From NCBI GenBank assembly GCA_949284545.1, contig CASDVX010000061.1:1-33185 (forward strand): 33,185 nucleotides of DNA, in the 5' to 3' direction. Below the pieces are notes generated by a model, which worked only from the letters and a program-made list of their open reading frames with translations, did not search any database and was not told the origin of the DNA. Within the stretch, counting starts at the first letter, position 1, and the number at the start of each line of letters is the position of its first letter. A program made the position numbers and the translations under genes. The DNA is from an uncultured Eubacteriales bacterium. Lineage in GTDB: Bacteria > Bacillota > Clostridia > Oscillospirales > CAJFTT01. Of the stretch, positions 6,541 to 25,487 are shown in pieces.

Positions 6541-6558
6541 GCTGTTTTTACAGCTTTT
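6541..6558 (+). terminator. Weak terminator overlapping the aroF stop
   Basis: GCTGT-TTTT-ACAGC followed by TTTT on the + strand, 14 bp after the nucleotidyltransferase stop and overlapping the 3' end of the convergent aroF. The stem is only 5 bp, so efficiency is doubtful. Confidence 0.35.
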
Positions 6559-7576
6559 CCGCAAGGTCAAATATGAGATTTTCCGTCTTTTCCCAGCCCA
6601 GGCACGGGTCGGTGATGGACTTGCCGTAAGTATGCTCATCCATGCTCTGGGCGCCGTCTTCAATGTAGCTTTCGATCATCAGCCCTTTGACCAGACGCTT
6701 TATATCTCCGTTGTGGTTCCTGCTGTGTATCACGTCTTTGGCAATGCGTATCTGTTCAAGATATTTTTTGCCTGAATTATTGTGATTCGTATCCACGATC
6801 ACGGAAGGATTTTGCAGCCCCGATTTCATGTAAAGCTCGTTTACCTTCAGCAGATCCTCATAATGGTAATTTGAAGCGCTTTTGCCTGTGAAATCCAAAT
6901 ATCCGCGAAGTATGGCGTGGGCGTACGGGTTGCCGGAACTCTTGACCTCCCAGCCGCGGTAAATAAAAGTATGGCTGTGCTGAGCTGCGGTTATGGAATT
7001 CATCATTACAGACAGGTCGCCGCCGGTAGGATTCTTCATACCTACAGGTATGTCCAATCCGCTGGCGGTCAGCCTGTGCTGCTGGTTTTCCACGGACCTT
7101 GCCCCCACCGCCACGTATGAAAGCAGATCGGAAAGGTATCTGTGGTTATCCGGATAAAGCATTTCATCCGCGCAGGAAAAATCGTAATCCCTCAAAGCGC
7201 TCATGTGAAGTTCTCGTATGGCCACGATCCCCTTGTACATATCAGGTTTTTCATCCGGGTCTGGCTGATGAAGCATACCTTTGTACCCGTCGCCGGTGGT
7301 CCGTGGCTTGTTGGTATATATGCGCGGGATAATTATGATTTTGTCGGACACTTTATCCTGCACCAGGCGCAAACGTGAAATATAATCCAACACCGAATCT
7401 TTATTGTCCGCAGAACACGGTCCTATAATGAGGATAAATTTTTCGCTTTCTCCACTAAACACGGCTTTTATTTGCTCGTCCCTGGCCGCCTTTACCTCGG
7501 CCATACGCTCTGTCACGGGAAAGTCCTGCTTGACCTGCTGAGGTATGGGTAGTTTCCTGTAAAAGTGCATATTCAT
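6548..7576 (-). CDS. aroF: 3-deoxy-7-phosphoheptulonate (DAHP) synthase
   Basis: First step of the shikimate pathway: PEP plus erythrose-4-phosphate give DAHP. It belongs to the E. coli-like class I-alpha family (AroF/G/H). The signatures are GPCSADNKD (52-60, with the metal-ligand Cys54), PRIYTNKPRTTGDGYKG (84-100, phosphate and substrate binding), VGARSVENQQHR and GMKNPTGG. At 342 residues it is a full-length catalytic barrel with no extra ACT or chorismate-mutase domain. Which aromatic amino acid inhibits it cannot be read with confidence, and the symbol stands for the family. GGGG lies 8 bases before the ATG. It is the last gene of the aromatic operon, 5 bp after tyrA, and ends 21 bp from a convergent gene. 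Confidence 0.95.
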   Translation of the reverse strand: MNMHFYRKLPIPQQVKQDFPVTERMAEVKAARDEQIKAVFSGESEKFILIIGPCSADNKDSVLDYISRLRLVQDKVSDKIIIIPRIYTNKPRTTGDGYKGMLHQPDPDEKPDMYKGIVAIRELHMSALRDYDFSCADEMLYPDNHRYLSDLLSYVAVGARSVENQQHRLTASGLDIPVGMKNPTGGDLSVMMNSITAAQHSHTFIYRGWEVKSSGNPYAHAILRGYLDFTGKSASNYHYEDLLKVNELYMKSGLQNPSVIVDTNHNNSGKKYLEQIRIAKDVIHSRNHNGDIKRLVKGLMIESYIEDGAQSMDEHTYGKSITDPCLGWEKTENLIFDLAEKL

Positions 7577-7581
7577 TTTAA

Positions 7582-8442
7582 TTACCCCTTTATATCAAAA
7601 TTTTTGCGACGCGCGGAGGAAATGCGCATCATTTCACGTATGCCTTCCCTGTCGCCCGTTTTTATATATCCGTACAGCTTGTCAAACGAGCTCCTGTATC
7701 TGTCCATTTCCTCAAGAAGGGATACGCGGTTTGTAAGAAAAAGCTCGCTCCACATAACGTCGTTTATATTGGCTATCCTCGTAAGGTCGCGGAACGAGTC
7801 ACCCGTATATCTGACAAGCTCCGGATCGTCGCACGCGCACATGAGCGAGACCGCTATGCAGTGGGTGAGCTGCGACACAAACGCCACCATTTCGTCGTGT
7901 TTTTTCGGGCTGAGCTCCGTTATGCGCTCAAAGCCAAGAATCTCTCCCAGGTTTCTGCACAGTTCTATTGCCCCTGGTGTGTTTTTTCCCGTGGGCACAA
8001 TGATGTAGTTTGCTCCCTTAAATATGTCCGGATCGCTGTTGCGCACCCCACATACTTCTCTCCCTGCCATCGGGTGAGCCGCAATAAATTCCGCTCCGGG
8101 TTTTAAAAGCTCCTGAATCCTATCTACTATGCCGCATTTAACACCCGTCACGTCCGTCACGACGGCTCCGGTTTTTATAAGATTTCCGTGTTCCCTTACC
8201 CATTCTATAAACGTGTGAGGATACAGTGCGAATATAACCACATCTGCCTCCGATACGATCTTTTCGTCCACTGTCCATGCTCCGTTTTTTATAATTCCCT
8301 TTTTCAGAGCGTATTCAACCGAATCTCTGTCATCGCTGACGGCACTTACGCAATATCCCTCACGAGTGAGAGCGGCAGCGTAACTGCCGCCCATTAGGCC
8401 CAGTCCCACAATGAGTATTTTCATAGACTTGTCAAGCTTCAT
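7582..8442 (-). CDS. tyrA: Prephenate dehydrogenase
   Basis: Oxidatively decarboxylates prephenate to 4-hydroxyphenylpyruvate, the committed step to tyrosine. The Rossmann motif GLGLMGG lies at 13-19, and the conserved AHPMAGRE and SQLTHCIA histidine segments are present. It is 286 residues and has no C-terminal ACT domain, unlike many Gram-positive TyrA proteins, so tyrosine feedback on this enzyme may be weak. The coding region overlaps the end of aroA by 11 bp, with AAGGTGA upstream of the ATG at 8442. A second in-frame ATG at 8424 starts directly at the Rossmann strand, and the true start could be either. Confidence 0.94.
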   Translation of the reverse strand: MKLDKSMKILIVGLGLMGGSYAAALTREGYCVSAVSDDRDSVEYALKKGIIKNGAWTVDEKIVSEADVVIFALYPHTFIEWVREHGNLIKTGAVVTDVTGVKCGIVDRIQELLKPGAEFIAAHPMAGREVCGVRNSDPDIFKGANYIIVPTGKNTPGAIELCRNLGEILGFERITELSPKKHDEMVAFVSQLTHCIAVSLMCACDDPELVRYTGDSFRDLTRIANINDVMWSELFLTNRVSLLEEMDRYRSSFDKLYGYIKTGDREGIREMMRISSARRKNFDIKG

Positions 8443-9637
8443 ATTTCTTCACCTTCACGTTTATCTGCTCTATCCTTTCAAAGAAGTCCGCAAAACTCTT
8501 TGAAACCGCTTCCGCGCCTTCTATTTCTCCGCCCGTGACCGAACAAAGAAGACTTAACGCCATAACTATGCGGTGGTCATTGTGCCCGTACAGCGGTATA
8601 AGCGGTTTTTTTAGAACGCCGTTTTTTATCGTAACGGTGTTTTCCCCTATGTCCGTCTCAATTCCGAATTTAGCGAGTTCTTCCGCCATGGCGGAACTAC
8701 GATCGCTTTCTTTCAGCCTGAGACGCGCTGTCCCGGTGAATTCCGCTCCTCCCGTAGCCGCCGACAGCGCAAACATCACCGGAGCGAGATCCGGGCAGTC
8801 CGAAAGGTCGAAATCTTTTCTCCCCTGCAAAAGCTCTTTAAACATCCGGGCGTATACCCTGTCGCCCTGCAGTGTATCCGCCTTTAAGCCCGTCACCGAG
8901 ACGTTTCCTCCAAGGACGTTAAACCCTGCCAAAAAAGCCGCGTTTGAGCAGTCGCCTTCAACCATATATTCCGTCGGTTTCGGGCGCTGTCCGCCCTTCA
9001 CGGAGAAGCTGCACCCGCTGACGGATATCCTCACGCCGAAATCGGAAAGCGCCTGCATTGTCAGTTCCACGTACGGCCGGCTTTCAAAGCGCCCTGTCAC
9101 CTCTATCGTGCTGTCCGTTGCCACAAGCGGAAGAGCAAACAAAAGGCCCGTGACAAACTGGCTGGAAATATCCCCCGGAACCGTAAACTTCCCGCCCGCA
9201 AGCCTGCCGCGTATGTTTACTCCTTCGCCGTCCCGCCTCATCAGTATTCCTCTTGCTGCGCATATCTCCTCGTAAACTTCCAGCGGACGTTCCATGAGCC
9301 GCTTGCTGCCTGTGAAGCGTATATTTGAGCCGGAAAGCATGCCCAGCGGCATCAAAAAACGCAGAGTGCTTCCGCTCTCTCCGCAGGAAAGCTGTACGTC
9401 TTTCACGTTGAAAGGATCAAGCCCGCCAATGCTGACCTGACCGTCTGAAGCCTCTGTTTGAGCGCCCATGGCCCGCAGACAGGCTGCTGTTGCTTTTATA
9501 TCGTCCGACCACGCTATATTTCTTACGGTGCTTTTGTCCGACAGAGCTGCGCAGATCAGCGCTCTGTGCGCCATGCTTTTTGAGGGCGGCGCGCATACCG
9601 TGCCGGACGCCGTCGATTTTTCCACCGTTACTCTCAT
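8432..9637 (-). CDS. aroA: 3-phosphoshikimate 1-carboxyvinyltransferase (EPSP synthase)
   Basis: Joins shikimate-3-phosphate and PEP to EPSP. The N-terminal PPSKSMAHRALICAAL, GESGSTLRF and C-terminal DHRIVMALSLL segments are the family hallmarks, and the length of 401 residues is slightly short of the usual 425. GESGSTLRF carries serine where many class I enzymes have the NAGTA(M/L)R motif; this resembles other Firmicute sequences, and no inhibitor sensitivity is inferred. It overlaps the aroQ stop by 4 bp and the tyrA start by 11 bp, which suggests translational coupling. Confidence 0.95.
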   Translation of the reverse strand: MRVTVEKSTASGTVCAPPSKSMAHRALICAALSDKSTVRNIAWSDDIKATAACLRAMGAQTEASDGQVSIGGLDPFNVKDVQLSCGESGSTLRFLMPLGMLSGSNIRFTGSKRLMERPLEVYEEICAARGILMRRDGEGVNIRGRLAGGKFTVPGDISSQFVTGLLFALPLVATDSTIEVTGRFESRPYVELTMQALSDFGVRISVSGCSFSVKGGQRPKPTEYMVEGDCSNAAFLAGFNVLGGNVSVTGLKADTLQGDRVYARMFKELLQGRKDFDLSDCPDLAPVMFALSAATGGAEFTGTARLRLKESDRSSAMAEELAKFGIETDIGENTVTIKNGVLKKPLIPLYGHNDHRIVMALSLLCSVTGGEIEGAEAVSKSFADFFERIEQINVKVKKYEA

Positions 9638-10074
9638 TCTGCCTTGCCCGCCTCATCTATAAGCCAGTCAATGGCTTCAGTATACCCGTCAAATCCATGC
9701 CCGCAAATCGTCTTTCCGCAATACGACCTTACATAGCTTATCTGCCTGAAGTCCTCCCTTGCCGATACGTCGGAAATGTGCACCTCCGCCGCGGGCAGCG
9801 AAACCGCCTTGAGCGCGTCCAATATGGCCACGCTGGTGTGCGTGTACGCTGCCGGGTTTATAACTATCCCATCAAAATTGCCGAGAGCCTGCTGGATTTT
9901 GTCCACTATGCCGCCCTCATGATTAGACTGGTATATCTCCACCTCCGCACCGCGCTTTGCGGCGTGCCCTGAAATCGTCCTGCACAGCTCATCGTATGTT
10001 TTCCTTCCGTATATTTCAGGTTCCCTTACACCCAGCATATTTATGTTGGGACCGTTAATCACAAGTATTCTCAT
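9634..10074 (-). CDS. aroQ: Type II 3-dehydroquinate dehydratase
   Basis: Dehydrates 3-dehydroquinate to 3-dehydroshikimate. RILVINGPNINMLGVREPEIYG at the N-terminus, NPAAYTHTSVAI in the middle and EVHISDVSAREDFR near the end are the type II signatures, including the catalytic Tyr and His. The protein is 146 residues, normal for the family. The frame is open to a TTG at 10092, but GGAAGGG sits 7 bases before the ATG at 10074, so the ATG is preferred. The gene starts inside the last codons of the aroE-aroK fusion, with a 20-bp overlap. Confidence 0.95.
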   Translation of the reverse strand: MRILVINGPNINMLGVREPEIYGRKTYDELCRTISGHAAKRGAEVEIYQSNHEGGIVDKIQQALGNFDGIVINPAAYTHTSVAILDALKAVSLPAAEVHISDVSAREDFRQISYVRSYCGKTICGHGFDGYTEAIDWLIDEAGKAE

Positions 10075-11308
10075 AGTAAAATTCCCTTCCAATCATATCG
10101 GCCGCCTGTTCCGGGGTCTCCGGCTCCCGTATCACCGCGTCACTGCTGCTGCAGTACACGACGTAACGCTCTGCGTACCTGCGTTCGAGATCCTCCCTTG
10201 TTGAGGAAAGGGGTCGGTCGGGTGTGGCCGCCAGGTGCTCAGGCGCTCTGTCTAAAAAGTATATTCTCCCGTTTTCCCGAAGCAGATCGACGTTTATTCC
10301 GCGCAGCACCGCTCCGCCGCCTGTGGAGATCACGGTATGCTGAAACCTCGATACATCGGATATCACAGAGCTTTCGATATCTCTGAACGCGGTCTCCCCG
10401 CGGTTTTCAAATATGCTCCGTATACTTTGTCCCTCCCGGCTTACGATTTCGGAGTCCGTATCTATATAAGTGAACCCGTACCGCTGCGCCAGCATTCTGC
10501 CTACTGTGGATTTACCGCTTCCCGGCATACCTATCAGCACGATATTCTGCTTTGCTTTCAGGATACTCCGGTATGTTTCCTCGATTTTTGCCGCCGGAGC
10601 CGGCAATCCGGTGAATTTTTCACCGGCACGCGCCGCCTGGGCCACAAGCATATACAGTCCGCCTACGGCCTTTATCCCCGCTTTTCTCGCATCGCATACC
10701 AGCTTGCTCCTCAGGGGATTGTATATCGCGTCCACAACTCCTTCCGCCTTAGGGAACAAAGATATTTCCGCGGCGCTCCTGCCTATGTCCGGAAACATCC
10801 CGCAGGGGGTCGTATTGACGAGTATGCCGGCGTCGCTGTGTTTTTCCGCAGCCTCCGCGTAGGTAATACATCCGTCCTTTCCGGTACGCGACACGCGCAG
10901 CACCTCGGCGCAACACAGCTTTCTCGCCGCCGCGACGGCGGTTTTGGACGTTCCTCCGCTGCCAAATACCAGTACCTTCCGCCCCTCAACCGCTATGCCC
11001 GCTCTTTTTATCAGCTTGCACATGCCGTACAGATCCGTATTGTATCCTCGCAGTCTTCCCCCGTCGTTCACCACCGTATTCACCGCGCCGATCTCCGCCG
11101 CGGTTTCGTCTATTTCGTCCAGATACGGGATCACCGCCTCTTTATACGGTATGGTAACGTTTATGCCCTTAAACTCACGCCTTTTGAGAAACTCTTCCAA
11201 CTCCCGGCGAGGCAGTTCTTTTAGCTCATAAGAGTATCCGAAAAGGCTTTTGTGTATCTCCGGCGAAAAGCTGTGTGAAAGCTTTTCCGCAATGCATCCG
11301 TATTCCAT
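10055..11308 (-). CDS. aroE-aroK: Shikimate dehydrogenase - shikimate kinase fusion
   Basis: A bifunctional protein of 417 residues. Residues 1-248 are AroE: SHSFSPEIHK (11-20), NVTIPYK with the catalytic Lys56, the GAVNTVV segment (74-80), the NADP-binding FGSGGTSKTA (115-124) and the final GLYMLVAQAA. Residues 254-417 are AroK: Walker A GMPGSGKST (260-268), DTDSEIVSREG, the FRDIE shikimate-binding segment and STGGGAVL (328-335). It would convert dehydroshikimate to shikimate and then to shikimate-3-phosphate. The junction KAKQNIVLIG is continuous with no stop or frameshift signature, so I read it as a true fusion. The ATG directly follows the aroC stop with no spacer; AGGTGAG lies upstream. 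Confidence 0.95.
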   Translation of the reverse strand: MEYGCIAEKLSHSFSPEIHKSLFGYSYELKELPRRELEEFLKRREFKGINVTIPYKEAVIPYLDEIDETAAEIGAVNTVVNDGGRLRGYNTDLYGMCKLIKRAGIAVEGRKVLVFGSGGTSKTAVAAARKLCCAEVLRVSRTGKDGCITYAEAAEKHSDAGILVNTTPCGMFPDIGRSAAEISLFPKAEGVVDAIYNPLRSKLVCDARKAGIKAVGGLYMLVAQAARAGEKFTGLPAPAAKIEETYRSILKAKQNIVLIGMPGSGKSTVGRMLAQRYGFTYIDTDSEIVSREGQSIRSIFENRGETAFRDIESSVISDVSRFQHTVISTGGGAVLRGINVDLLRENGRIYFLDRAPEHLAATPDRPLSSTREDLERRYAERYVVYCSSSDAVIREPETPEQAADMIGREFYYENTCD

Positions 11309-12400
11309 TTACTCACCTAACCAATCCGTTCCGTAATGCGACGCTATGATATCGCAGACCGTAAGCGCCGCGGCGCAGTCTACAACTGTTCTGGCTCTGT
11401 GCACTATGCACGGGTCGTGCCGCCCCGCCGCCTTTATCTCAGCCTCCCTGTTAAGACGGAAATCCACGGTGTCCTGGGAAAACAGCACTGTAGGCGTGGG
11501 TCTGACCGCACATCTGAAAATCACGGGCATCCCGTTGGTTATCCCCCCGTTTATGCCGCCGCTGTTGTTTGTGGACGTTACCACGCGTCCTCCGGAAATC
11601 CTGAACGGGTCATTCGCGTTTTTCCCGGTCATGTCCGCAAACCCGAATCCCGCTCCGAATTCTACGCCCTTTACGGCCGGCACAGAGAACATCATATGCG
11701 CTATCATGCTTTCCACCGTATCGAACCACGGCTCGCCCAGACCTGCGGGGAGCCCTGCAATGGCCGTTTCAAGGGTCCCTCCGAGGCTGTTTCCCTCCGC
11801 TCTGGCGGACTTTATTTTTGCGACCATCTCTTTTCCCGCGGATTCGTCGAGCACTCCGAAGTCCCGCTCGTTGAGGGCGCGGATATCAGCGTCAACGTCC
11901 TCGAAGTCCCTGTCGGAAACGCCGCCGCACCTGAGGATATGGGTTGCGATGCGTATACCCTTTCTTTCAAGCGCGGGAATGACCACAGCTCCCGCAGCCA
12001 CAAGTCCGGCCGTGATACGTCCGCTGAAATGTCCTCCGCCCCGGAAATCCTCATAGCCGTGATATTTGCAGTACGCAGAATAGTCAGCATGAGACGGGCG
12101 CGCCAGCCACCTTGTGGCTTCATAATCGGACGACTTTGTATCGGTGTTTTCTATTCTTATGCATATGGGCGTACCGCTGGTCCGCCCTGAGTAAACCCCG
12201 CTTTCAAAAATAACGGAATCCGTTTCTCTCCGCGGTGTGGATATGTCGGCTGCTCCGCGCCGGCGTAAAAGCATTTTTTTCACATACTCTCCGTCAACTG
12301 GGATCCCCGGCGCGAGACCGTCCATTACAACTCCCACAGAGTTACCGTGACTTTCGCCGTATATCGTAACCAAAACGCTTGTCCCGAAAGTGTTCTTCAT
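11309..12400 (-). CDS. aroC: Chorismate synthase
   Basis: Eliminates phosphate from EPSP to give chorismate, using reduced FMN. The family segments are YGESHGNSVGVVMDGLAPG near the N-terminus, GRITAGLVAAGA, and DPCIVHRARTVVDCAAAL near the C-terminus. The protein is 363 residues from the ATG at 12400. That ATG overlaps the aroB stop as ATGA, and GGGAGAG lies about 10 bases upstream, so this start is better than the TTG six bases earlier. The aroE-aroK fusion begins immediately after its TAA stop. Confidence 0.96.
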   Translation of the reverse strand: MKNTFGTSVLVTIYGESHGNSVGVVMDGLAPGIPVDGEYVKKMLLRRRGAADISTPRRETDSVIFESGVYSGRTSGTPICIRIENTDTKSSDYEATRWLARPSHADYSAYCKYHGYEDFRGGGHFSGRITAGLVAAGAVVIPALERKGIRIATHILRCGGVSDRDFEDVDADIRALNERDFGVLDESAGKEMVAKIKSARAEGNSLGGTLETAIAGLPAGLGEPWFDTVESMIAHMMFSVPAVKGVEFGAGFGFADMTGKNANDPFRISGGRVVTSTNNSGGINGGITNGMPVIFRCAVRPTPTVLFSQDTVDFRLNREAEIKAAGRHDPCIVHRARTVVDCAAALTVCDIIASHYGTDWLGE

Positions 12401-13452
12401 CGGCAATCACTCTCCCTTTTCGTCATCCGCGCATTCCGGCCCAATATGTTTCGGAGCATGCTTTCAAGCTCCGAAAACGGCATTTTGCGCAGCTCATACC
12501 TTCCGATGTCGGGCACGAACACCACAGTTATATCTTTGCCGGACAGTTTTTTGTCGTGTCTGCACGCCTCGAGTATTTTTTCCGGATCACAGCGGATTTC
12601 CGTAGGCAATCCGAGTTTTTTCAGGACCGGTTTCAAACGCGCCGCGACGCTTTCGGAACACATGGGCAGCATTCCCATGCTCACGCATTCACCGTGGAAA
12701 TAGTTGCCCATTCCGTTGACCGATTCTATGGCATGGGCTATGGTATGTCCGAAATTCAGCACCCTTCGCAGACCCGTTTCCTTTTCGTCCGCCTCTACCA
12801 CGTTTTTTTTGATCATCACTGAGCCGAGTATCGCTTTGTCAAGGAAATCTTCAGTAAGTGCATCACAGCTTTCAAACAGGGAAAAAAGCTCCGCGTCGCA
12901 GGTAGCAGCCATCTTTACCGTTTCCGCAAGGCCGTTTGATATCTGACGCGCCGGCAGAGTACGCAATGTATCAGGATCTATGATCACCGCTTCCGGCGGG
13001 TAAAAGGATCCTACTATGTTTTTAAAGCCCATGAAATCAACCGCCGTTTTTCCGCCCACAGACGAATCAACCTGAGAAAGGACTGTGGTGGGAATGTTAT
13101 AAAATTTTATCCCGCGCATATACGTAGCCGCAGCAAAACCCGCCATGTCCCCTACGACTCCGCCGCCCACGGCGATCACACGGTCCGTGCGTGTGAAATC
13201 GTTTTTCACCAGGGCGGCAAGGATCGTTTTATACGTATCCATGTTTTTGTTGGGTTCACCCTGCTCTACCGTAACAATTACCGCCTCAGAGCATCGTTCT
13301 GCTACCCACTCCGAGTACTCTTTGGGTACGCCGCTGTCCGTCACCACAAGAGATTTGCCGGAAAGGTCGATGTATTCGTGTATCGACGCCAGCGTTCCGC
13401 GTCCGAAAATAACATTATACGTTCCGGTTTCAACTTTTACCGGTATTATCAC
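12397..13452 (-). CDS. aroB: 3-dehydroquinate synthase
   Basis: Cyclises DAHP to 3-dehydroquinate with catalytic NAD and a metal ion. The NAD-binding VGGGVVGDMAGFAAATYMRG and the metal-ligand segments NGLAETVKMA, NFGHTIAHAIE and YFHGECVSMGM are present. It is 351 residues long, a normal length. The start is GTG at 13452, with AGAGG about nine bases upstream; the ATG at 13459 is out of frame. It overlaps aroC by 4 bp and follows pheA after 21 bp. Confidence 0.96.
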   Translation of the reverse strand: MIIPVKVETGTYNVIFGRGTLASIHEYIDLSGKSLVVTDSGVPKEYSEWVAERCSEAVIVTVEQGEPNKNMDTYKTILAALVKNDFTRTDRVIAVGGGVVGDMAGFAAATYMRGIKFYNIPTTVLSQVDSSVGGKTAVDFMGFKNIVGSFYPPEAVIIDPDTLRTLPARQISNGLAETVKMAATCDAELFSLFESCDALTEDFLDKAILGSVMIKKNVVEADEKETGLRRVLNFGHTIAHAIESVNGMGNYFHGECVSMGMLPMCSESVAARLKPVLKKLGLPTEIRCDPEKILEACRHDKKLSGKDITVVFVPDIGRYELRKMPFSELESMLRNILGRNARMTKRESDCR

Positions 13453-13473: not shown

Positions 13474-14562
13474 TCAGATTTTTATCTCGTCGTCAAAGCT
13501 TCCCAATACTTTGAGCTGCTTGCAGCACTTGCTGAGCTCGCTCATCATGGCCGTGCCCCGCTCGCCGCCTATGTTTCCTTCCCCCTCGGCGTAAAAATAA
13601 TAGTTCCACACAAGTTCCTTCGTGGGCCGGCTCTTAAGCGCCCTGAGGTTGAATCCGTACTCTCCTATCACCGAAACCGCGCGGCCCAGCGCGCCCACGG
13701 AGTTGTTCACGGTAAACAGCATTATGAACCGGTTATCCGTCGGGGACGACGCCTTGCGCGCTCTGGTGAAAACCGCAAATCTGGTTGTGTTTGCGCTGCT
13801 TTCGTTTATATGTCCCTCAAGCTTAATGAGCCCGAATTTTTCCGCCGCCTCCTCGCTGCCTATGGCTGCCGTATCGTATCTTCCCATTTCCGCAACGTCT
13901 CTGGCGGCCACTGCCGTATTTACCGCTTGCACCGTTTCAAAGCCGTGTTTTCTGATATACTCCGCACATTGTCCCAGAGCCTGAGGGTGGCTTATAACAC
14001 GCTTTATCCCGTCTATGGTCGCGCCTTTCACAGCCAAAAGGTTCTGTACTATCTCCGCCTCGTATATACCGCTTACGTAAAGCGAACCGAAAAAGGCAAG
14101 GTCCATCACGCGCTCCACGTCGCCGTTATAGCTGTTTTCAATCGGCAGCAGCGCACAGTCGCATTCCCCGTTGACCACCGCGGAGTATGCTGCGCTGAAA
14201 TCCTGGTATGCCACGCACTCCGCGTCCGGGAACACCTTCCTGGCAACTATATTGGCAAAAGCTCCTTCAACCCCGCTGAAGGCTACCCTCATTCCGTCAA
14301 GCAGCCTGTGCTGAAAGTGTTTAGACAATTCCACGGTGTTTTTAAGAAAATTAACGTAATAGGACCGGTAATCGTCGTCTGTTATGTAAACGGCGTTTTT
14401 TTTCACCATGCTTTCTTCTCTCGACGGATCCTCCACCGGGATTCCGTGCTCCTGCTTGTAGGCTGCAACGGTTCTTACGGCGTCCATCCTTCTGGAAAAA
14501 AGCTCCGCCATCTGCCTGTCAATTTCATTGATTGTTTTTCTGGCTTCTTCAAGTCCTGTCAT
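13474..14562 (-). CDS. pheA: Bifunctional chorismate mutase / prephenate dehydratase (P-protein)
   Basis: Residues 1 to about 85 form an AroQ-class chorismate mutase domain; the conserved basic residues are in EARKTI, SRRMDAV, AYKQEHG and DPSREE, in the same order as in E. coli PheA. A prephenate dehydratase domain follows from MRVAFSGVEGAFAN, with PIENSYNGD and NTTRFAVF, the last carrying the catalytic Thr. The C-terminus is an ACT domain (NSVGALGRAVSVIGEYGFN then LKSRPT, the usual ESRP being KSRP here), which normally binds Phe for feedback inhibition. The start is the ATG at 14562, with GGAAG seven bases upstream; a TTG at 14568 is also in frame. It is the first structural gene of the operon, behind the Phe/Tyr leader. 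Confidence 0.95.
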   Translation of the reverse strand: MTGLEEARKTINEIDRQMAELFSRRMDAVRTVAAYKQEHGIPVEDPSREESMVKKNAVYITDDDYRSYYVNFLKNTVELSKHFQHRLLDGMRVAFSGVEGAFANIVARKVFPDAECVAYQDFSAAYSAVVNGECDCALLPIENSYNGDVERVMDLAFFGSLYVSGIYEAEIVQNLLAVKGATIDGIKRVISHPQALGQCAEYIRKHGFETVQAVNTAVAARDVAEMGRYDTAAIGSEEAAEKFGLIKLEGHINESSANTTRFAVFTRARKASSPTDNRFIMLFTVNNSVGALGRAVSVIGEYGFNLRALKSRPTKELVWNYYFYAEGEGNIGGERGTAMMSELSKCCKQLKVLGSFDDEIKI

Positions 14563-14614
14563 GTGCAATCTTCCTTTTTTGTTTTTTCTATACGTCCCGG
14601 CCCGGACGGGAAAT

Positions 14615-14654
14615 AAAAAAACCGCATACCAAACGTGCGTTTATGCACATGCGG
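14615..14654 (-). terminator. Attenuator terminator of the aromatic operon
   Basis: On the minus strand CCGCAT (14654-14649) pairs with ATGCGG (14627-14622), with an inner stem ATGTGC/GCACGT around ATAAAC, followed by seven T's (14621-14615). A second CCGCAT copy sits directly upstream at 14660-14655, so the 3' arm has two possible partners. It lies 49 nt after the leader-peptide stop and 52 nt before pheA. Confidence 0.8.
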
Positions 14655-14672
14655 ATGCGGACTGTCCGTGGT

Positions 14673-14784
14673 CATATGTCTGAAAGGTTTCATTCCGTCA
14701 GATCAAAATGAATACGGGCAGCGCCTGGTAAAGTAAAAGTAGAAATAACAGGACTCAAAAAACATACCGCCCGCTCCTTTCAGA
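14673..14784 (-). promoter_or_regulatory. Candidate alternative RNA pairings of the aro leader
   Basis: Hand-found complementary segments in the leader transcript: TCTGAAAGG (14784-14776, containing the leader ribosome binding site) with CCTTTCAGA (14687-14679); TTCATT (14712-14707, last leader codons) with AATGAA (14694-14689); TCTGA (14702-14698) with TCAGA (14683-14679); and CATATG (14678-14673) with CATGTG (14651-14646), the last competing with the terminator 5' arm. Several are mutually exclusive, as expected for an attenuator. No folding energy was computed. Confidence 0.5.
14703..14765 (-). CDS. Phe/Tyr-rich leader peptide of the aromatic operon
   Basis: A 20-codon gene reads MFFESC-YFYFYF-TRRCPYSF and stop. 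Six residues are Phe and four are Tyr, with six alternating aromatic codons in a row at positions 7-12 and no Trp. AAAGGAG (14780-14774) is eight bases before the ATG, and the promoter is just upstream. An intrinsic terminator stands between it and pheA. By analogy with E. coli pheL, ribosomes stalling at the YFYFYF codons when charged tRNA-Phe or tRNA-Tyr is short would change RNA folding and allow transcription of pheA to aroF. The composition and position are seen; the mechanism is inferred. The same frame is open upstream for a further 43 codons, but those lie before the promoter. Confidence 0.85.
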   Translation of the reverse strand: MFFESCYFYFYFTRRCPYSF

Positions 14785-14796
14785 TTTAATACTGAG

Positions 14797-14825
14797 ATGT
14801 TATAACATTTTAACCCTAATGTCAA
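14797..14825 (-). promoter_or_regulatory. Promoter of the aromatic operon
   Basis: On the minus strand TTGACA (14825-14820) and TAACAT (14802-14797) are 17 bp apart. The start point would be near 14790, giving about 25 nt before the leader peptide. The -10 lies in a perfect 12-bp palindrome, ATGTTATAACAT (14797-14808). Confidence 0.75.
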
Positions 14826-14919
14826 GTGTTTTTTTCTTTTCCGGCTCTCGGCCCTCTCGCATGAAAATATGTTGCGCCGCGGCTTGACACACATCGCTCA
14901 CCCCACCGACGGGCAGGAC

Positions 14920-14990: not shown

Positions 14991-16970
14991 TCAGTCGAGC
15001 TGCGATTCGTGCTTTGCGAAAAAGTCCACCCTGGGGTACAGGAACCTGAGCTTCCGGCCGGGCTCGACAAAATCGCCCATCGTGTCAAATATCCTGTCCC
15101 AGCTCCAGAAACTCTCGTCGGCCCCGAGATATTCTCTTATCATCTCGCACCCGGCGGGAACGATAGGGTGTGACAGCACGACAGCCGTGCGGAGCATATG
15201 GAACGCGTCTATCAGAGTGTTTTTCCTCAGCTCCCCGTCATCTTCCCTGTCCGCCTGGGTCATGTTTTTGGACCAGAATTTGTTGCAGCCTCTTATATAT
15301 TCGTCCAATATATTCATCACTGAGTGAAATTCCGTCCTATACATTGCGGATTCGTAGGCGAGGACCGTGCGCGCGGCTCCCTCTGAGGTTTCCGCGCTTA
15401 CGCCGCCTTCGGGAATGGTTCCGTCGAAATATTTCTGCGCGGTGTAAAAACATGAACGCGCCAGTCTGTTGAGAACGTTTGTGAAAAGGTTCCCTTCCTT
15501 TACCACCGGGTCCGCGTCCCGCTCGGAGGCGGACGGGTCGTAAACTTTGGGTCTGAACGAAACGCTCTTCATACCGAGGCCGAGAGCCGCAAAATGCGCT
15601 CTGAGCTGCTCCGCCGTGTAATGGTCGAGAAGCTCCGCCGCCATAGGCGGTTTCACTGCGCCGCTGCTCGACGCCTTTTTATCCAAAAACAGTATGTGAT
15701 GGTTAGCTACCACCGTCGTAAGCTGGAGGGCTCCCTCCGGCGGTTCCAGGCTGGGGGCTCCGTTTTGCGTGGCCAGCCACATGGCGGTTTGAGCATTGCC
15801 GTAAAAATAAATGTTGTCCTGTCCTATAATCTGATAGACTCTGGCCTCTTTGCTGCACCAATACTTCTTCCACTCGTCGGCGTCTTTTCCGACGGAGGCA
15901 AGGTACGCCTTCGTAAACGATATGGGCGCCCACAGGGATTCCGGCCACACCCACACCGTGAGGTCCTTTCCGCTTCCGTCAAGCTCCGGCGCTTTGACGC
16001 CCCATGAGATGTTTCCGGTCAGTCTGAACGGCACAGTGGTTTTACCCTCACGATACCTGATTCCCCCCGCTGCAAGAACCGCGCAGGCTCTGTCTCTGTC
16101 CTCAAGGCGGTCAAACGTGAGAACAAAAGACGTCTTTCCGTCGGAAAACACATGCTCCGGCAATGTCTGTCTAACGCGCTCGTAGTCGCTCATGAACTCG
16201 GTCTTTACATACAGCGCCGGCGCGCCGAGAAACTCGCTGATCGTGTCCGGAACTATGCTTCTCACCGATTCGTCTTTTCTCAGCTTTTCCACGTATTCCG
16301 TCATCAGGCCGTCAAACGCCTTCAAATCAAAATACCAGTTGCTCACGTCTCGCATCTCCGGCGTATTTCCGGTAAGGGTGCTTTTCGGGGCGATAAGCTG
16401 GCTGGGCATGTACTGATGTCCCAAATCGCATTCGTCCGCATATGCCTTCTCCGATTTGCATCCCTGTACGGGGCAGCGGCCTACCACCTGCCGGCCGTTA
16501 AGAAACGTTCCCGCTTCGGCGTCGTAGAACTGTTTGTTGGTTATCTTTTTAAGGTACCCGTTTTCGTACAGTTTCGTAATGAACTTATCGGTCACGTCCC
16601 AGTGGAATTTTTTGGTCATTCCTATGCCAGACGCGCCGAACAGGTCCAGGCTGATTTCAAAATCCCTCAGGGTGTTTTTCTGGTCGGTATGGTTGCGCAT
16701 AACATAGTCTTCTATTGTACCGTCAAATTCGCCTGATTCCTTCAGCTTCCGGTATCCCTCTGCTATCGGCGAGCCGTAACAGTCCGTTCCCGAAATGAAT
16801 ATCACATTTTCCTTTCCGATTCGGTCGCGGAGAAACCGCGCCAGTATGTCCGCCTGAACGAACACCCCGCCCACATGACCGAAGTGCAGGCTTTTATTGC
16901 CGTACGGCATTCCGGCGGTAACTACCGCCCGTTTGGGGAATTCCGGTCTTTCGGGAAAATCGACGCTCAT
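14991..16970 (-). CDS. Divergent methionyl-tRNA synthetase-like class I ligase
   Basis: Residues 15-70 hold the class I signature in altered form: GMPYGNKSLHFGHVGG, with HFGH (29-32) for HIGH, and GTDCYGSP (61-68) in place of the MetRS D-A/E-H-G block. A zinc knuckle with C166, C171, C181 and H185 is followed by PKSTLTGNTPEMRD, like E. coli-type MetRS. KMSKS appears as KASSS (432-436), so the second lysine is lost. Residues about 235-315 look like an insertion before the SWGV strand. There is no C-terminal tRNA-binding domain. The ATG at 16970 follows AAGAGG; a TTG at 16979 is in frame but too close to it. MetRS ancestry is clear. Whether this is the housekeeping enzyme or a paralogue with another role is open. 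Confidence 0.75.
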   Translation of the reverse strand: MSVDFPERPEFPKRAVVTAGMPYGNKSLHFGHVGGVFVQADILARFLRDRIGKENVIFISGTDCYGSPIAEGYRKLKESGEFDGTIEDYVMRNHTDQKNTLRDFEISLDLFGASGIGMTKKFHWDVTDKFITKLYENGYLKKITNKQFYDAEAGTFLNGRQVVGRCPVQGCKSEKAYADECDLGHQYMPSQLIAPKSTLTGNTPEMRDVSNWYFDLKAFDGLMTEYVEKLRKDESVRSIVPDTISEFLGAPALYVKTEFMSDYERVRQTLPEHVFSDGKTSFVLTFDRLEDRDRACAVLAAGGIRYREGKTTVPFRLTGNISWGVKAPELDGSGKDLTVWVWPESLWAPISFTKAYLASVGKDADEWKKYWCSKEARVYQIIGQDNIYFYGNAQTAMWLATQNGAPSLEPPEGALQLTTVVANHHILFLDKKASSSGAVKPPMAAELLDHYTAEQLRAHFAALGLGMKSVSFRPKVYDPSASERDADPVVKEGNLFTNVLNRLARSCFYTAQKYFDGTIPEGGVSAETSEGAARTVLAYESAMYRTEFHSVMNILDEYIRGCNKFWSKNMTQADREDDGELRKNTLIDAFHMLRTAVVLSHPIVPAGCEMIREYLGADESFWSWDRIFDTMGDFVEPGRKLRFLYPRVDFFAKHESQLD

Positions 16971-25288: not shown

Positions 25289-25301
25289 ACTGTTACTATC
25301 G

Positions 25302-25452
25302 GATAGAGGCGCGGTGTTGCGTGTAGCTGCCCGGCGAGAAATGCCGCCGGACGCGAAGGACAGTACCGCCGAAGGAGGATGCGGAAAATCCTTCTGGCTG
25401 CCGGGCGCACGGCTCGTCGGCTGTCATCATTGCGTTATGATGGAGAACTATC
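25302..25452 (+). ncRNA. Lysine riboswitch (L-box)
   Basis: The conserved L-box blocks occur in order: ATAGAGGCGCG near the 5' end, GGCGAGAAATGCC, ACCGCCGAAGGAGG (25365-25378), CTGGCTG, and CTGTCATCATTGCG then ATGATGGAGAACTATC at the 3' end. GATAG (25302-25306) and CTATC (25448-25452) close the P1 helix. An intrinsic terminator follows 35 nt later, so lysine binding should favour termination before asd. Placement before asd-dapA-dapB fits exactly. This rests on reading consensus blocks, not on a covariance-model score. Confidence 0.92.
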
Positions 25453-25487
25453 TTTACAAACAGCGTCTCTTATTATATTGCATTGAT

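Follow-up and report, generated by a model that had tools for sequence, protein, structure and literature searches.

A conserved, putative phenylalanine/tyrosine leader-peptide attenuator ahead of an aromatic amino acid operon in uncultured gut Clostridia

Introduction

How an uncultured Eubacteriales bacterium might adjust the synthesis of its aromatic amino acids is the question raised by a short region upstream of its pheA gene, in which a small open reading frame rich in Phe and Tyr codons is followed by a terminator. The region lies on contig CASDVX010000061.1 (assembly GCA_949284545.1), of which a stretch of 33,185 nucleotides, here called the window, was analysed. A first-pass annotation of these letters had proposed that a Phe/Tyr leader peptide controls the whole operon by attenuation. 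As set out below, a ribosome-mediated (leader-peptide) transcription attenuator is very likely to be what the region encodes, judging from sequence comparison and modelled RNA folds.

Organization of the operon and its leader

The eight genes downstream of the leader run in the order pheA-aroB-aroC-aroEK-aroQ-aroA-tyrA-aroF, and the identities of all of them were confirmed with NCBIfam. Together they encode the common pathway as well as the Phe and Tyr branches, and the leader is placed to gate the entire set, as had been proposed. The genes and their upstream neighbour are as follows (window coordinates).

ends at 14991, minus strand: methionyl-tRNA synthetase gene, upstream of the leader
13474..14562, minus strand: pheA, chorismate mutase-prephenate dehydratase, first structural gene; best start ATG 14562
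12397..13452, minus strand: aroB
11309..12406, minus strand: aroC
10055..11308, minus strand: aroE-aroK fusion, fourth ORF
9634..10092, minus strand: aroQ
8432..9637, minus strand: aroA
7582..8442, minus strand: tyrA, prephenate dehydrogenase
6548..7576, minus strand: aroF/G-type (AroFGH-type) DAHP synthase gene, last of the operon

All the elements of the leader that had been read from the letters are present: a promoter, AAAGGAG, a 20-codon peptide gene with six Phe and four Tyr codons including YFYFYF, a terminator with seven T's and then pheA.

14820..14825, minus strand: -35 box TTGACA; promoter sites also precede the leaders of relatives
14797..14802, minus strand: -10 box TAACAT, at a spacer of 17
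14774..14780, minus strand: Shine-Dalgarno (SD) sequence AAAGGAG of the leader peptide, assigned from sequence
14767..14773, minus strand: segment 1, CGGGCGG between SD and ATG, partner of segment 2
14703..14765, minus strand: leader peptide gene, MFFESCYFYFYFTRRCPYSF and stop; ATG at 14765, stop at 14705-14703
14730..14747, minus strand: control codons TAT TTC TAC TTT TAC TTT (YFYFYF), codons 7-12
14708..14726, minus strand: segment 2, the codons right after the aromatic run, pairing with segment 1 or 3; core CTGCCCG at 14721-14715
14659..14669, minus strand: segment 3, ACGGACAGTCC, antiterminator partner of segment 2, overlapping the base of the terminator 5' arm
14622..14660, minus strand: intrinsic terminator hairpin (segments 3 and 4), -20.9 kcal/mol
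14615..14621, minus strand: U-tract of the terminator, seven T

The promoter (TTGACA-17-TAACAT) is of the sigma-A type and matches the consensus at 10 of 12 positions. In MFFESCYFYFYFTRRCPYSF, Phe occupies residues 2, 3, 8, 10, 12 and 20 and Tyr residues 7, 9, 11 and 18. The sequence TCTGAAAGG (14784-14776, minus strand), which holds part of the leader SD, is the exact 9-base complement of CCTTTCAGA (14687-14679, minus strand).

The first-pass annotation had seen no T-box at the leader, and this agrees with the model searches: RF00230 gives eight places in the organism's own genome, none of them in the window's contig, and all 4227 Rfam models together return no match in 14560-14900 even at E<=10. 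Reading the leader for a GAG/UAG triplet array (TRAP) revealed none that was obvious, and regulation by TRAP is unlikely.

Conservation of the leader and the question of chance

Relatives of PheA were gathered from genomes of the same order, from larger regions and from the GTDB collection, and the 1,600 bases upstream of pheA at 69 loci (108 kb) were scanned for the combination of a promoter, an SD, a small ORF (at least four Phe/Tyr in seven residues, both amino acids included) and a terminator. The full combination gave 22 candidates in 22 of the 69 loci, whereas the same scan of the remaining DNA on both strands (2.17 Mb) gave one; with 0.05 expected upstream, the enrichment is about 440-fold. 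Two of the 22 (L071 and L079) are doubtful, and L041 is a clear member missed by the SD filter. No fewer than 20 related loci have this arrangement before their orthologous operon, and it is not due to chance. The sole background candidate, L094, encodes MNYKKTTDNFFFFFINAMDFKL with promoter, SD and terminator, and may represent a Phe leader belonging to a different operon. Aromatic ORFs at L068, L073, L074, L076 and L079 were set aside as look-alikes, several being the T-rich tails of upstream terminators.

That the aromatic run merely reflects T-rich sequence behind an upstream terminator seems true for L068, L073 and L074, and five consecutive Phe/Tyr codons taken alone are indeed at background in the organism's own genome (22 matches vs 32 for the reversed control pattern). 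For the window this explanation is scarcely credible, as the leader has its own promoter and SD, its codons alternate, and relatives are found at the same place. It is also very improbable that the small ORF goes untranslated or has no function, with the region acting simply as a 5' terminator or as some other RNA switch such as a T-box or riboswitch: the Rfam searches described above speak against such a switch, and the ORF with its SD is kept in many lineages at the enrichment found in the pheA-upstream scan.

The attenuator reading is further favoured by the composition of the peptides. Comparison with related genomes, a check of the kind that the first-pass annotation had suggested, shows residues that vary between species within a preserved Phe/Tyr-rich composition, as in MFFKAYYFYYFKKGCPSSACRT (L047), MFGKEFYFYYYFSTDCLPSFKNAAE (L039), MYINRFYYYSYTDCLCAKAA (L041), MNKAFYYFYYFVQDCPLSLMTIA (L066) and MMFFYCYYFYFFKNAID (L064). 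Across 22 leaders (the doubtful L104 included), 540 residues comprise 79 Phe, 80 Tyr and 2 Trp, with both Phe and Tyr in every one of the 22. Such conservation in composition only, not in sequence, bears on the idea that the hydrophobic peptide arrests its own ribosome in the manner of TnaC by sensing a small molecule (free Phe/Tyr or other) instead of codon supply. Residues outside the run do recur, for example (D/G)CP after the run and NRFYYY in another subgroup; the recurring DCP codons, however, are explained by RNA pairing with segments 1 and 3, and arrest of this kind is very improbable.

A sub-case of the attenuator reading, with which it shares part of its probability, is that only Phe shortage matters, with the Tyr codons acting as spacers or contributing only slightly. 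It draws on the aroR leader of Corynebacterium glutamicum, which precedes the aroF operon and contains Phe-Tyr-Phe; in the account of Neshat 2014 given by PMC11802643, readthrough into aroF rises on Phe limitation and the availability of Tyr is without effect. The equal use of the two amino acids in the leaders counted above, their joint presence in each, and the occurrence of tyrA as well as pheA in the operon argue against it, and this sub-case is rather unlikely. Sensing of both Phe and Tyr is, from the codons, plausible.

The leader stays in front of the operon although the gene next to it varies, three gene orders being seen: pheA directly (the window, L041, L047, L049), a PLP aminotransferase and then pheA (L039, L040, L042, L043), and DAHP synthase (aroF) and then pheA (L156, L157, L167). 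The last three were retrieved with the segment 3 motif ACGGACAGTCCGC, which is blind to the peptide, and thus provide an independent check on the leader family. Over 394 genomes, matches to ACGGACAGTCCGC are near background and mostly due to chance, with four true leaders retrieved including that of the window.

Co-evolution of the pairing segments

For comparison between species, each leader was divided into segment 1 (the last 22 bases ahead of the start codon), segment 2 (the first 36 bases beyond the aromatic run), segment 3 (the terminator's 5' arm together with some 20 bases preceding the terminator) and segment 4 (the 3' arm). The pairing energy of cognate partners was compared with that of partners swapped between species, with the doubtful L104 and L065, as well as L071, excluded. 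Cognate partners pair better for 1:2 (-13.9 vs -10.0 kcal/mol, z -6.4), 2:3 (-19.4 vs -13.6 kcal/mol, z -7.3) and 3:4 (z -9.8), with p < 5e-5 in each case. The 1:3 control, a pairing that the model does not predict, is flat in the same comparison (z +0.13), so base composition is no explanation of the result. The signal persists in a reduced set of 17 less related leaders (z -5.4 for 1:2 and -6.1 for 2:3) and in the set without the window (z -6.3 and -7.5).

The 1:2 helices are built from quite different letters in different species, examples being GGUGAGCAGA/UCUGUUUACC in L040, GCACGGACA/UGUCUGUGC in L041 and GAGUUCCG/CGGAACUC in L058. Against shuffled sequence, p < 0.05 is reached by 1:2 in 9 of 21 leaders and by 2:3 in 15 of 21. 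In the window, cognate 1:2 pairing (CGGGCGG/CUGCCCG) amounts to -19.8 kcal/mol and exceeds shuffles (p = 0.025); its 2:3 helix contains an A-C mismatch and, taken alone, is no better than shuffles (p 0.46), so that the predicted antiterminator of the window rests on its relatives. Judged over the family, the leaders form a classical four-segment attenuator, with predicted antiterminator (2:3) and protector (1:2) helices that exclude one another. The original proposal of a leader-peptide attenuator is supported, with no fewer than 20 relatives keeping a mixture of Phe and Tyr codons and with co-evolving 1:2, 2:3 and 3:4 helices.

Folding with the ribosome in different positions

The first-pass annotation had also called for folding of the stalled and unstalled states, and the outcome depends on transcript length. 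Equilibrium folds of full-length RNA with ribosome masks place the terminator in nearly all states and do not separate them, which means that the switch must be kinetic. Such an outcome would be anticipated for a decision taken before the polymerase has left the terminator. As the terminator nearly always wins at full length, truncated transcripts ending at the terminator loop were used, with an assumed footprint of 12 bases, counted from the start of the A-site codon; the resulting probabilities depend on this footprint and on the position of the polymerase. In these transcripts the states do separate. The terminator 5' arm is paired upstream with a mean probability of 0.67 or 0.65 when the ribosome is at the first or middle aromatic codon, compared with 0.31 at the stop codon, and 17 of the 21 leaders show more sequestration in the stalled state (p 0.0005 and 0.0014). 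Between the released and stalled states, no clear difference was seen over the whole 21-leader set (p 0.13).

For the window, the terminator arm was set by hand, since the automatic pick used in the 21-leader sets was unsuitable for it. Stalling at codon 2, 7 or 10 gives a segment 3/5' arm pairing of 0.88, stalling at codon 12 (F12, the last of the run) gives 0.42, with the antiterminator already weakened, and a ribosome at the stop codon or after release gives 0.00. In the predicted fold of the released state, the 1:2 hairpin forms and the SD region pairs with the downstream CCTTTCAGA; this modelled TCTGAAAGG/CCTTTCAGA pairing may shut off re-initiation on the leader.

Proposed mechanism

In the proposed attenuator, RNA polymerase would begin at the promoter and a ribosome would load on AAAGGAG and translate MFFESCYFYFYFTRRCPYSF. 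A shortage of charged tRNA-Phe or tRNA-Tyr would stall the ribosome on codons 2-12, with segment 1 behind it and segment 2 ahead, leaving segment 2 free to pair with the nascent segment 3; the base of the terminator could then not close, and the polymerase would read through into pheA-aroB-aroC-aroEK-aroQ-aroA-tyrA-aroF. When both charged tRNAs are plentiful, the ribosome would reach the stop codon and cover segment 2 or, alternatively, leave so that segments 1 and 2 pair. In either case segment 3 would be free, the 3:4 terminator would form and transcription would end.

Distribution and exchange with a putative operator

In a PheA tree, 14 of the 17 rows in the window's clade carry the leader. 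The clade members L050 and the identical pair L044/L059 have no detectable leader, and in L044/L059 it is possible that the leader was lost or replaced within the clade. Upstream of their aminotransferase gene, L044/L059 still show a GC-rich hairpin resembling a terminator and a site resembling a promoter, but no aromatic ORF is seen. Outside the clade, leaders occur in scattered lineages, including L077, which is labelled Treponema. Members of the same PheA family, 46-51% identical to the protein of the window, are encoded on contigs labelled as other phyla, namely L077 (Treponema), L065 (Spirochaetia) and L082, L083, L085, L088, L089 and L091 (Bacteroidales), reflecting either horizontal transfer or mis-binning.

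Five leaderless loci carry the palindrome GTTAACANTGTTAAC at the promoter of an aminotransferase-pheA operon, at about -1220 from pheA in L054, L055 and L056, at -1254 in L067, and at -1246 and -1358 in L070. It is absent from 616 kb downstream of pheA starts, and is probably a repressor operator that substitutes for the attenuator. With four RNA segments that co-evolve rapidly, one of which lies within coding sequence, and with an apparent exchange of leader for operator, the evolution of attenuators becomes directly testable.

Comparison with known leaders

Among known leaders, E. coli pheL uses Phe as its control codon and gates pheA alone. The likeness to the window leader lies in a leader peptide before pheA, a terminator and the sensing of charged tRNA-Phe (PMC11802643), which is proposed for the window leader; the latter differs in having no match in Rfam. 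By its description in PMC11802643, the aroR leader of C. glutamicum also resembles the attenuator proposed for the window, being ribosome-mediated, with mixed Phe/Tyr codons before an aromatic operon in a Gram-positive organism. It is found in Actinobacteria and by that account has three consecutive aromatic codons upstream of aroF, whereas the window leader is clostridial, has ten Phe/Tyr codons of which six form an unbroken run, and precedes a whole shikimate-Phe-Tyr operon. The uORFC-13-1 motif of Acholeplasma, a predicted Phe uORF before aroF, is similar by description in that a uORF with Phe codons is accompanied by a promoter, an RBS and a terminator upstream of a gene for DAHP synthase; it differs in being defined by at least one Phe codon only, with no Tyr codons mentioned, and in occurring in Acholeplasma and environmental sequences (PMC8632094).

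Leader-peptide attenuators of his in Bacilli (PMC2965389) and of ilv-leu in S. aureus (PMC5794164) and Listeria (Rli60, PMC5864092) are demonstrated or argued cases of ribosome-mediated attenuation operating in Firmicutes, and Rli60 follows the same 2:3/3:4 segment logic as the window leader. They serve other amino acids and pathways, and belong to Bacilli in contrast to the Clostridia of the window. With aroR, these Firmicute leaders and the Acholeplasma uORF already described or predicted, the initial statement that such a leader would be new is too strong. No report of leader peptides with both Phe and Tyr codons in Clostridia was found in the open-access literature; the attenuation principle is classical, and its conserved two-amino-acid version in an uncultured gut Clostridia lineage appears to be undescribed. 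Classical trp/phe-type attenuation would thereby be extended to Clostridia as a conserved family, in which a putative two-amino-acid sensor gates an entire pathway.

Genomic context of the putative sensor

One of the eight T-box matches in the organism's own genome lies before pheS (L033, C16:12660-12887, minus strand) and has an apparent UUC (Phe) specifier. With this T-box at pheS and the leader peptide at the aro operon, tRNA-Phe is probably read in two ways, which would offer a natural case of one genome using two RNA devices for the same tRNA.

The chorismate-binding family (TrpE, PabB, MenF; PF00425) was not detected in this genome, which is 94% complete, so the absence is no proof. It likewise went undetected in the other five leader-bearing genomes of a set of 59; as 45 of these 59 have no PF00425 member, there is no special association with the leader. 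With the family undetected, Phe and Tyr are the sole chorismate products found in the window's organism, which fits a sensor of exactly this pair, and the genome content suggests that Trp is not synthesized from chorismate. A TrpB-like gene with a weak T-box match is present in the same genome (L035).

The evidence is evenly poised over the fullest reading, which is of an undescribed family, widespread in uncultured gut Clostridia and extending to one Treponema-labelled contig, in which Phe shortage and Tyr shortage would each independently open the whole shikimate-to-Phe/Tyr operon, with the genome also reading tRNA-Phe by a T-box at pheS and the leader replaced by a repressor operator in related lineages.

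Elsewhere in the window, a Lysine riboswitch (RF00168, 58.8 bits) is found at 25296-25458 on the plus strand before an apparent asd-dapA-dapB, placing a second biosynthetic operon of the window under RNA control.
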